Shown here piece after piece: positions 37,321-61,017 of a stretch of DNA of 64,000 nt. The notes under the pieces are model-generated. The model was not told the DNA's origin, did not search any database, and was given only the letters and a program-made list of their open reading frames with translations. The DNA is from Bacillus sp. PK3_68. Its GTDB lineage: Bacteria > Bacillota > Bacilli > Bacillales > Domibacillaceae. A program made the position numbers and the translations under genes. Each line of letters starts with the position of its first letter. Positions within the stretch are counted from its first letter, which is position 1. The stretch covers positions 2,312,001-2,376,000 of the forward strand of contig NZ_NQYC01000001.1 in the NCBI RefSeq assembly GCF_003600835.1, read 5' to 3'.

Positions 37321-37524
37321 CTGTAATTATGTTGAAAAAATACTAAATATTCTACCTGTTACCCATTCATCTATTTTCTTGCAAGAAAACCTCTATTCTC
37401 CTGCATAGACATTCCAATTTCTCTCAAGATTAAAGAACTATTCTCCAGGGTATAGAGTCATATATTCGTTGGCTGTATATCGTTTATCAGTTGATTTTCT
37501 TAAAAAATTTGTAACAATCCCTGC

Positions 37525-37970
37525 TAGTTCGCACGGGGGTTTCGCTCTCTGTCGGAGTTTGACGAGCGGTTCTTCCACATGCCCCCATGCTGGACAGCGG
37601 ACTTCCTGCTCCTCCTTCCGATCAGTCAACATCGAATCGCTGTCGCTCTTCGTGTTTCCTTTATCGCATATGGAGCCGTCCAGTCTCTACGCCGCTGAAC
37701 AAGCGCCTTCCGCTTTTCTTTGGCCAGCTATGAGCACCATCGGCTCGAGGTCATAAGCCCATCCCGTTAGAAGGTTACAGGACAACCTTCTACCCGGCTC
37801 GTCTTATGCTTGTCGCCGATAGGCGGGTGCTCTCCGCTTTTCTTTTGGCCAGCTACAGGTGCTAGCGTGTACGGCGGTTTCGCTCTCTCCGTCGGAGTCT
37901 AAAGAACGACTCCTTGTCGAGCCCTCCAACCTCCTATCACGCTAAACAAGCACCTTTCGCTTTTCTTAAA
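37525..37970. repeat. tandem array of three modular intergenic repeats
   Basis: Three units in a row, each ending in TCCGCTTTTCTT or TTTCGCTTTTCTT, the last two starting GGCCAGCT. Unit 1 (about 37525-37722) has a core matching 56620-56749 and a degenerate left end. Unit 2 (37722-37845) has the core of the copy at 60629-60747. Unit 3 (37847-37967) has the core of the copy at 56748-56867. Units 2 and 3 close with a 7+6 bp stem interrupted by a five-base bulge (see findings). Confidence 0.8.
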
Positions 37971-49232: not shown

Positions 49233-50133
49233 CATCCTTTTCAATCGTGCTGCTATTCTGTTCTTGACTAGAAGGACTTTCTTCTGTTTCTTCAACTGAC
49301 TCTTCTGTCGCATTGTCAGTGGATTCCTCTGTCGTACTGTCGGTAGATCCCTCTGTTGCACTGTCAGTGGACTCCTCTGTCGTACTGTCGGTAGATTCCT
49401 CTGTTGCACTGTCAGTGGATTTTTCTGCTTGTACCGGCTTAATTGATTCTTCAATCGCCGCTACCGTTTTATTAAAACATTCAAGTGGGTTGATAGCTAC
49501 ATTATCTTTGCGCACTTCAAAGTGCAAATGAGTGCCTGCTTTTTCGTTAAAGAGACTTTTACCAGCTTTTGCGATAACATCCCCTTGGGAAACTTGATCG
49601 CCTTCTGCTACTTTAATATCTTTTACTGATTGATACTGCGTGACAAAACCATCAGCATGTTCAATCACAATAACGTTGCCCAGCAAAGCATCGTTTTCCT
49701 GTACCTTTGTTACTTTTCCGCTTAAAGCGGCTGTAACATTAAATGTTTTGCCTTCTTTTGTTGCATAATCAATTCCTGTGTTTGGCTGGTACGTATTATT
49801 ATAGACTACAAGAGCTTCTTCTTGTTGTTTTTCAGAGGCCTTCTCATCATAAAAGTTGGTTTTGATGACTGCTTTGTCTTCATCTTTTAAAGGCAAAGCC
49901 ATTTGCTCCACAGATGAATTGACTTCTTCCGCCGGCTGATTAAACATTTCCTCATCTACAGCACTTTCTTTCGGGCCTTTCACTTGCTCTTTCCCCGGGC
50001 CTGCCATTTGGTACCAGACAATGCCTGAAATTAAAATTGCGGCACTCATTAAGTAGATAGCAGGGAACACCCAGCGGTTTTTAAAGATTTTTTTCAGTTT
50101 TTGAGAAGTGTTTTTCTTTTCTCCCTCTCTCAT
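49219..50133 (-). CDS. spoIIQ: stage II sporulation protein Q
   Basis: A 304-residue forespore membrane protein that meets SpoIIIAH in the intermembrane space, forming a zipper for engulfment and the feeding-tube channel. Cytosolic residues 1-22 are basic, one transmembrane helix follows (about 23-42, VFPAIYLMSAAILISGIVWY), then the LytM/M23 domain (about 100-225). The HxH motif THLHFEV is kept, but the usual first-metal His is Asn (QPNTGID), as expected for a catalytically degenerate SpoIIQ. The C-terminal 70 residues are acidic, including five 8-residue STDxATEE repeats. ATG 50133 lies eight bases after GAGG; an ATG two codons earlier overlaps that site. A sigma-F-like promoter lies just upstream. 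Confidence 0.92.
   Translation of the reverse strand: MREGEKKNTSQKLKKIFKNRWVFPAIYLMSAAILISGIVWYQMAGPGKEQVKGPKESAVDEEMFNQPAEEVNSSVEQMALPLKDEDKAVIKTNFYDEKASEKQQEEALVVYNNTYQPNTGIDYATKEGKTFNVTAALSGKVTKVQENDALLGNVIVIEHADGFVTQYQSVKDIKVAEGDQVSQGDVIAKAGKSLFNEKAGTHLHFEVRKDNVAINPLECFNKTVAAIEESIKPVQAEKSTDSATEESTDSTTEESTDSATEGSTDSTTEESTDNATEESVEETEESPSSQEQNSSTIEKDDSSS
49304..49423. repeat. five tandem 24-bp repeats inside spoIIQ
   Basis: Units of the form TCTGTYGYAYTGTCRGTRGA plus four bases encode STD(S/N)(A/T)TE(E/G). Alternate units are more alike (units 2 and 4, units 3 and 5), so the last expansion step copied 48 bases. The repeat number may vary between strains by slippage. Confidence 0.85.
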
Positions 50134-56594: not shown

Positions 56595-56870
56595 TATTGT
56601 CTAGCTGCAGGCGCTTAGCGGCTAGTGGACTTCCTGCTCCTTCTTGCGATAAGTCAACATCGGATCGCTCACGCTCTTCGTGTTTCCTTTATCTCATGCG
56701 GAGCTGTCCAGTCCATACGCCGCTGGATAAGCACCTTCCGCTTTTCTGGTCTAGCTGCAGCGGCCAGCCCGTACGGCAGTTTCGGTCTCTCTGTCGGAGT
56801 CTGAAGAACGACTCCTTATCGAGCCCTCCAACCTCCTATCGGGCTGATCAGGCCGCTTTCGCTTTTCAAG
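56595..56870. repeat. two modular repeats inside the atp operon (atpG-atpD spacer)
   Basis: Copy 1 (about 56599-56746) starts GTCTAGCTGCAGGCGC and ends CCGCTTTTCT. Copy 2 (56748-56867) starts GGTCTAGCTGCAGCGGCC and ends GGCCGCTTTCGCTTTTC. Their cores match units 1 and 3 of the 37.5 kb array. The region is transcribed as part of the operon and ends only one base from the atpG stop codon. No gene is present. Confidence 0.8.

Positions 56871-59948: not shown

Positions 59949-61017
<1,069 letters not shown>

Follow-up and report, generated by a model that had tools for sequence, protein, structure and literature searches.

The folded repeats that lie between genes of Bacillus sp. PK3_68, including within its atp operon, are best read as members of an order-wide family of mobile hairpins with a selected fold. 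The units combine several core types with common ends, fold into a hairpin whose stems covary, have moved among related genomes, nest within one another, and leave truncated copies of one polarity. We consider it likely that they are small, non-autonomous mobile elements that function like REP or MITE repeats. Their fold would be under selection, probably because the folded strand is handled by machinery that searches for two enzyme families did not reveal.

Architecture of the units

The window (the whole stretch of DNA analyzed, 64,000 nt) contains five complete units and one truncated unit, with core types A, B, and the longer C all present (Table 1). A first-pass annotation had listed five copies in which different sequences pair at the same positions. 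All of these paired segments were found where it had placed them, and all five copies were matched in the window by covariance models of 122 positions, R1 for type B and R2 for type A. The low R2 score of the unit at 56598 is expected, since its core is of another type than that of R2; one extra T separates the two 5′ helices of this copy. Although the structure stood, the extents of the repeats had to be corrected: the two units at 37721 and 37846 are about 122 nt long, the one at 56598 is longer, and the stem continues outward. The truncated unit belongs to the same array as the two units that follow it and lies beyond the coordinates first reported. As judged from its letters, the array around 37520-37967 has at least three members and probably four. 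A degenerate type-B-like stretch was seen by eye upstream of the truncated unit (window 37520-37720).

Table 1. Repeat units in the window, with stems and bulges in plus-strand letters
Position	Strand	Unit	Model match	Outer stem	Inner stem	Bulge	Remarks
about 37583..37720	(-)	truncated long type C, without GACA end					37596-37719 87% identical to 56624-56747
37721..37844	(-)	core type A	R2, 110.8 bits (unit used in building R2)	GAGCACC 37732-37738/GGTGCTC 37826-37832	ATCGGC 37739-37744/GCCGAT 37815-37820	AGGCG 37821-37825	folds; foot AGC/GCT; AAAAGC end is the right side
37846..37967	(-)	core type B	R1, 139.9 bits (unit used in building R1)	AGGTGCT 37857-37863/AGCACCT 37949-37955	AGCGTG 37864-37869/CACGCT 37938-37943	AAACA 37944-37948	fold z -3.66; foot AGC 37851-37853/GCT 37959-37961
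56598..56748	(-)	long type C (~150 nt)	R2, 34.2 bits (weak)	AGGCGCT 56609-56615/AGCACCT 56730-56736 (one mismatch)	AGCGGC 56617-56622/GCCGCT 56719-56724	GGATA 56725-56729	first of two in atpG-atpD spacer
56748..56869	(-)	type B	R1, 136.1 bits (unit used in building R1)	AGCGGCC 56759-56765/GGCCGCT 56851-56857	AGCCCG 56766-56771/CGGGCT 56840-56845	GATCA 56846-56850	second in atpG-atpD spacer
60628..60749	(-)	type A	R2, 126.6 bits (unit used in building R2)	AGCGCCT 60639-60645/AGGCGCT 60731-60737	AGCCGC 60646-60651/GCGGCT 60721-60726	GGAC 60727-60730	atpE-atpF spacer; AAAAGC end directly at atpE stop codon (atpE is the open frame 60748-60960, named from its translation)

The letters are written here on the top strand, opposite to the one folded in the first-pass annotation, because the mismatch evidence given below points there. 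On this strand the consensus is NNAG-AAAAGC-GGA-outer stem-bulge-inner stem-core-inner stem-outer stem-GCA-GC-TRGACA. Almost no change is seen in the GC foot or in the two tips, AAAAGC and TRGACA; the stem sequences differ among copies and covary. Beyond a 3x3 internal loop (GGA against GCA), the stem extends outward to the AGC/GCT foot. Most units are about 122 nt long, forms of about 37 nt and about 150 nt also exist, and a further core type, D, is common in the stretches fetched from one relative (G001). Four of the five window units were folded, and all four gave the described hairpin. Out of 200 shuffles for each unit, 0, 3, 3, and 20 folded as well (z -3.66 to -1.45), so the unit at 60628-60749 is not exceptional by folding energy alone.

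The bulge between the two helices, which had been described as fixed and asymmetric, measures 5 nt in four window copies and 4 nt in one. Among 75 parsed, non-redundant copies, retained only where the stems pair and hence not used for testing covariation, 50 have a bulge of 5 nt and 25 one of 4 nt, in agreement with that description. On the top strand it reads YGNYY, with G as the second base in 49 and T or C as the fourth base in 48 of the 50 five-base bulges. Conservation of the bulge sequence between changing helices would fit a role in binding. Pairing of the bulge with the tail as a guide was also considered; the two are complementary in the consensus, without covariation, and we do not claim it.

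On the strand folded in the first-pass annotation, the last arm can form a small terminator-like hairpin before a T-rich tail (window 37821-37839 and 37701-37715); judged by eye, this pairing is not preserved in every copy. A 24-nt tandem repeat lies elsewhere in the window (49280-49423).

Covariation and the folded strand

Units were aligned by similarity and end motifs, not by pairing, into two sets, one of 20 type B units (A1) and one of 14 type A units (A2). RNAalifold predicted one hairpin for each, with 31 and 26 pairs, respectively. As seen in A1, 16 of the 31 pairs carry changes on both sides, compared with 10.1 in shuffles (reached by 0 of 500), and 93.3% of cells pair, compared with 30.5 to 47.5% when the partner is slid. 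Compensated changes occur in 16 of the 26 A2 pairs. Pair counts exceeded all 500 shuffles on every measure except the A2 pair types (74 of 500 reach it), and in both sets they were far above the slid-partner controls.

Covariation was then scored with our own simplified version of R-scape, which applies a G-test with average-product correction and reshuffles substitutions along a FastTree tree. Among the pairs of the structure itself, 5 of 31 (A1) and 6 of 26 (A2) were significant; judged over all column pairs, none was in A1 and one was in A2, and none lay outside the structure. A larger set was assembled from the arms of 95 units, selected by tips and length alone without a stem-pairing filter and reduced to 78 after removal of near-duplicates; since the tips were required, the GC foot was required as well. 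In these 78 copies, 5 of 1,275 column pairs (at least 4 apart, 54 columns) were significant, all of them in the outer stem. The two remaining outer-stem pairs fell below the all-pairs threshold, and two foot pairs never vary. The claim that the closing stems are kept by compensatory changes stands and is strengthened against a tree-based null in this simplified tree-aware test, in the end-selected set through outer-stem pairs only. The first-pass annotation had proposed building covariance models, searching this genome and its relatives, and testing covariation statistically; this was done, with a significant result, and the free breaking of stems in more copies, which it had named as fatal to the claim, was not seen.

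What reads as a G-T pair on one strand becomes an A-C clash on its complement, and the mismatches are unevenly divided. On the top strand, the outer stem has 13 G-T against 2 A-C in 106 copies and 12 against 3 in the 75 non-redundant copies (one-sided P 0.018). Over all pairs of A1 and A2, with one near-invariant A2 pair left out, the counts are 35 against 17 (P 0.009); they are 35 against 30 once that pair, which has the opposite sign in 13 sequences, is restored. These P values are optimistic, since the copies are related. The pattern of mismatches modestly favors the top strand as the folded one. The idea of a selected folded form is supported, but the particular strand on which it had been drawn is modestly disfavored. 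G-T pairing is compatible with single-stranded DNA too, and the folded form may act as RNA, as single-stranded DNA, or as both.

Distribution, mobility, and genomic context

In the genome of origin (G000), R1 gave 49 matches and R2 gave 48, many of them common to both; merged by hand, they represent at least 62 copies in 36 clusters. At an E value of 1e-5, R2 matched 53 of 61 genomes (this one and 60 others drawn from its genus, family, and order), and units occur in 35 of the 42 sampled genera of the order. The first-pass annotation had pointed to similar elements in other Bacillaceae, and the relatives do carry the family. Counts per genome are lower bounds, no more than 58 candidates having been scored in any one, with at least 31 scored copies in G000, 42 in G003, 58 in G009, and 46 in G015. 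In a phylum-wide draw of 149 genomes, only the genome of origin was matched; there was no match in the 148 others, one of which is listed as belonging to the same order, and the draw serves as a useful negative control. Of 80 named atp loci, 31 had at least one match at an E value of 0.01, partial matches included; the nearest relative among the listed loci is Bacillus wudalianchiensis, with an AtpG 98% identical. Plasmids and phages gave no match to type-B queries at an E value of 1e-5, and two other query sequences at 1e-3 found only one partial match of 47 nt, on a Geobacillus plasmid; this near-absence holds for the queries tried at that sensitivity. On contig 1 of the genome of origin, the stretches 0-0.96 Mb and 3.03-4.03 Mb are free of R1 and R2 matches, and other stretches are rich in them.

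The units are mobile. The atpG-atpD spacer carries a unit in Bacillus sp. ISL-55 (L057) and is empty in Cytobacillus oceanisediminis (L055) and Bacillus sp. ISL-37 (L058), with flanks 98 to 99% identical to those of the filled site. Two units of Neobacillus niacini PL-B1 (L100) are absent from N. niacini MER TA 87 (L099). The tRNA-Glu/tRNA-Asp spacer, whose flanks are 93 to 97% identical between relatives, holds different units in G000, G001, and G003 and is empty in G002, where the genes are 4 nt apart. At further sites (e.g., 1228449), the same position is occupied by different core types in different species. In G001, an identical 123-nt unit occurs in L169 and L170 with differing flanks, and in L170 it is nested within a type D unit in opposite orientation. 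Nested composites were found at six places of this genome (L170, L171, L172, L176, L177, and L178). Compared with the uninterrupted type D unit of L169, the nested insertions gained a small number of letters beside the AAAAGC end, without clear duplication. In L147 of G015, a type A unit interrupts a type C unit in its conserved core, and the insertion duplicated no more than one base. In the genome of origin, the best other copy found with one DNA query was 86% identical and the near-identical neighbors are tandem copies, so recent dispersal within this genome lacks support. In L143 of G003, seven near-identical type A units follow one another every 123 nt, which points to a recent expansion through unequal exchange or copying. 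Beyond the GACA/GACG end, the composites L172, L177, and L178 have further common sequence (AGACCCGCTC...), suggesting a larger moving unit. Two mini-units of 37 nt, rare among the loci seen, consist only of the two ends and the outer stem (L030:2829-2865 and L083:6860-6896) and may be deletion products.

Junctions were inspected for target duplication. Singletons had a duplication of at least 4 nt in 7 cases against 3.8 expected, which is not significant (P 0.07). The best candidate is the L083 mini-unit, flanked on both sides by GACCG. Junction triplets matched their own flank in 33 of 61 cases against 10.9 when flanks were shuffled between arrays, a shuffle that overstates the signal, since L143 alone gives 8 identical junctions and the usual letters differ between genomes. 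Duplication at insertion was dropped as a reading of these triplets because the nested copy shows that such letters travel with the unit. In 47 of 67 array junctions, AG precedes AAAAGC. One array of the genome of origin (L116, near 1310261) joins units of unlike type that are all preceded by CTT, not AG; two relatives that carry other units at this site have similar letters there (L158 and L159). GAAAA is present at some empty sites where the end of the unit would sit (L055/L058, L091, and L031/L035), and other empty sites are without it (L099 and the G002 tRNA spacer). Upstream of atpE in related species, a small inverted repeat (GTTCTTA/TAAGAAC and GTTCAT/ATGAAC) brackets each of two insertions (L100:2552-2674 and L102:2732-2855).

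Truncation is polar. Around 63 well-formed arrays or single units, the AAAAGC-end motif recurred within 25 nt after the array in 25 cases (by chance, 38 of 1,870 control windows), whereas the GACA-end motif preceded it in 3. Stubs retaining the AAAAGC end followed 16 of the 63 arrays, and stubs retaining the GACA end preceded none. The 16 remain from 20 flagged followers after reinspection, which removed a complete 182-nt unit (L030), two nest-interrupted units (L147 and L170), and a complete degenerate unit (L134); of those kept, three are supported by weak matches of some ten letters (L103, L140, and L143), and some from related species (L034 and L036) probably have one origin. Nine stubs were measured; they resemble a full unit for 17 to 40 nt, up to a point inside the first arm or shortly beyond it. 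Arrays may grow at the AAAAGC side as older copies decay at the opposite one, or copying may begin at the AAAAGC end and halt early. The arrays come from stricter catalogues that replaced an initial end-motif list of 868 candidates, mostly chance matches: sets of 96 units, 291 elements in 224 arrays (partly noise), 63 well-formed arrays, 85 units reduced to 75, and 95 reduced to 78. A stem-pairing filter was applied to the 291-element, 63-array, and 75-unit sets. A separate list of orphan ends proved noisy and entered none of the counts.

Units often lie on A-rich sequence at gene ends, and their NNAG start is often part of a TAA or TAG stop codon. In 16 of 22 arrays with a gene reading toward the AAAAGC end, the stop codon of that gene is at most 5 nt away, compared with 1 of 21 at the other end. 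By simple open-reading-frame calls on the genome of origin, whose frames were not annotated, 13 arrays are codirectional with genes reading into the AAAAGC end, 12 are codirectional in the opposite sense, 9 are convergent, and 2 are divergent. Within the atp operons of the loci compared, the mRNA carries the AAAAGC...GACA (top) strand in 27 of 33 clusters (P 0.00016, uncorrected for shared ancestry), or in 9 against 2 when counted by 150-nt position bins. All seven clusters just outside the operon have the other orientation, with the T-rich tail; related species have six of these seven at a single location.

Candidate machinery and known repeat systems

Two enzyme families, PF01797 (Y1) and PF00078 (RVT_1), were searched as possible mobilizers. 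Y1 gave no match in G000, G002, or G003; it matched in 48 of 61 genomes, including copy-rich G001, and the matches were sorted by size and score into IS200-like and RAYT-like. G009 and G015 had only strong IS200-like matches. The surroundings of Y1 genes in relatives, 50 loci of which 20 had been chosen for a RAYT-like gene (183 kb), contained no unit at an E value of 0.01. RVT_1 was absent from G000 and present in 31 of the 61 genomes; the 30 without it include copy-rich G005, G032, G041, and G042. The mobilizing enzyme may have been lost from the genome of origin, be foreign to it, or belong to a family other than Y1 and RVT_1. Perhaps it is a chromosomal host function, an idea suggested by the abundance of units in genomes without Y1 or RVT_1 matches and their near-absence from the plasmid and phage searches. 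Folding may be needed for movement. Trans-acting machinery would recognize the folded strand by its foot, internal loop, and bulge rather than by stem sequence. New copies, or the moved unit itself, would land between genes, often at gene ends and next to older copies, so that arrays would form.

Other explanations were weighed against this one. Ordinary intergenic palindromes or terminators that became alike by convergence could account for a hairpin with a T-rich tail, and terminator-like matches number 3 in the region against a mean of 0.7 in shuffles. However, the common ends and cores over about 120 nt, the absence of matches in the 148 wider-phylum genomes, and the identical copies at different places refute convergence for the family as a whole, and we regard it as extremely improbable. 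That the units are structured mRNA elements of untranslated regions, acting in stability, processing, or termination, selected for RNA function and merely spread by mobility, would agree with the strand bias inside the atp operon, with the seven T-tailed clusters just outside it, and with the stop codons close to the AAAAGC end. Such an origin is nevertheless quite unlikely, given that the genome of origin has no overall orientation bias (13 against 12 codirectional arrays), that close relatives have other units, or none, at a shared site, and that no Rfam match was above threshold.

An HUH (Y1) transposase, lost or external, that would cleave and rejoin the folded strand next to the hairpin in a REP-like or IS200/IS605-like manner is unlikely. 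The imperfect hairpin, conserved bulge, favored strand, intergenic arrays, and lack of clear target duplication resemble such systems, as far as excerpts of one account describe them (PMC8266576), Y1 genes are widespread in the order (G001 included), and GAAAA occurs at some empty sites. Against this stand the empty Y1 loci, the lack of Y1 in G000 and G003 despite their many copies and in G002, the presence of strong IS200-like matches only in G009 and G015, which also have many scored copies, a hairpin without the GTAG motif, the empty sites that lack GAAAA, and the bulge and tail that are complementary in the consensus without covarying. In an RNA-templated, SINE-like process, which we hold to be very unlikely, a transcript of the strand folded in the first-pass annotation, ending in CGCUUUUC, would be reverse transcribed into a nick, and incomplete copies would keep the AAAAGC end. 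The polar stubs, their stops after 17 to 40 nt, and the A-rich gene-end sites are as it would predict. One-sided addition of units with erosion of old ones also yields polar stubs, though, the mismatch asymmetry favors the opposite strand, and half of the genomes searched, including copy-rich ones, lack RVT_1. A mobile hairpin family with a selected fold remains our preferred reading.

The known systems share parts of this description. In REP/BIME repeats with RAYT (TnpA-REP), short noncoding intergenic palindromes with a bulged imperfect stem are likewise numerous and arranged in arrays. According to excerpts of PMC8266576, what is recognized there is a single folded strand that contains a bulge and carries a GTAG tag; a strand preference of the present units has modest support. 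REP palindromes measure 20-40 nt in the excerpted account of PMC3733652, compared with about 122 nt and several interchangeable cores here. The present stem has no GTAG/CGTC tag and is bordered by AAAAGC, mostly after AG, and by TRGACA, and no RAYT gene was found near the units. With respect to IS200/IS605, target duplication is not significant, nested insertions show no clear duplication, and GAAAA occurs at some empty sites only. Like MITEs, the units are small, non-autonomous, intergenic foldback elements; unlike MITEs, they have outermost tips (AAAAGC and TRGACA) that form no inverted repeat, target duplication is not consistent, and searches with PF01797 and PF00078 revealed no parent insertion sequence. 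Integron attC sites, at which recombination takes place, are conserved in the folded structure of one strand and its unpaired bases and not in sequence. The present units are alike in this respect, but no attC core letters were noticed by eye in them and no cassettes were seen.

By description, the nearest Bacillaceae repeats found are bcr1-bcr18, which measure 100-400 bp and of which bcr1-bcr3 are described as MITE-like. Excerpts of PMC6542083 and PMC3446304 present them as confined to the B. cereus group and linked to TTTAT repeats. They too are intergenic, with mobile features, and often lie in untranslated regions or operon spacers; the present family is set apart, on those descriptions, by its occurrence in 35 of 42 genera and by junctions that are mostly AG and not TTTAT. 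Stem-loop families Bhal-1 and Bhal-2 of B. halodurans are listed in the excerpt of PMC2267715. No description of these units was found among article titles and abstract openings, and their sequence strings matched papers unrelated by title. Rfam had no match in the window above its gathering threshold; at E values up to 5, there was one chance-level match (12.5 bits against 80).

Overall, these repeats lie between genes, including within the atp operon, across much of one bacterial order. That they make up an order-wide class of mobile element, defined by a structure-selected single-strand hairpin, a YGNYY bulge, swappable cores, and an enzyme that is neither Y1 nor RVT_1, is conceivable and on balance doubtful. 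If one-strand structure is what keeps the units mobile, they would be a new natural example, beyond the well-studied REP and IS200/IS605 cases, of mobility through single-strand DNA (or templated by RNA). The units also place strong hairpins into conserved mRNAs, and the filled and empty copies of the same spot in close relatives are natural experiments on mRNA processing.
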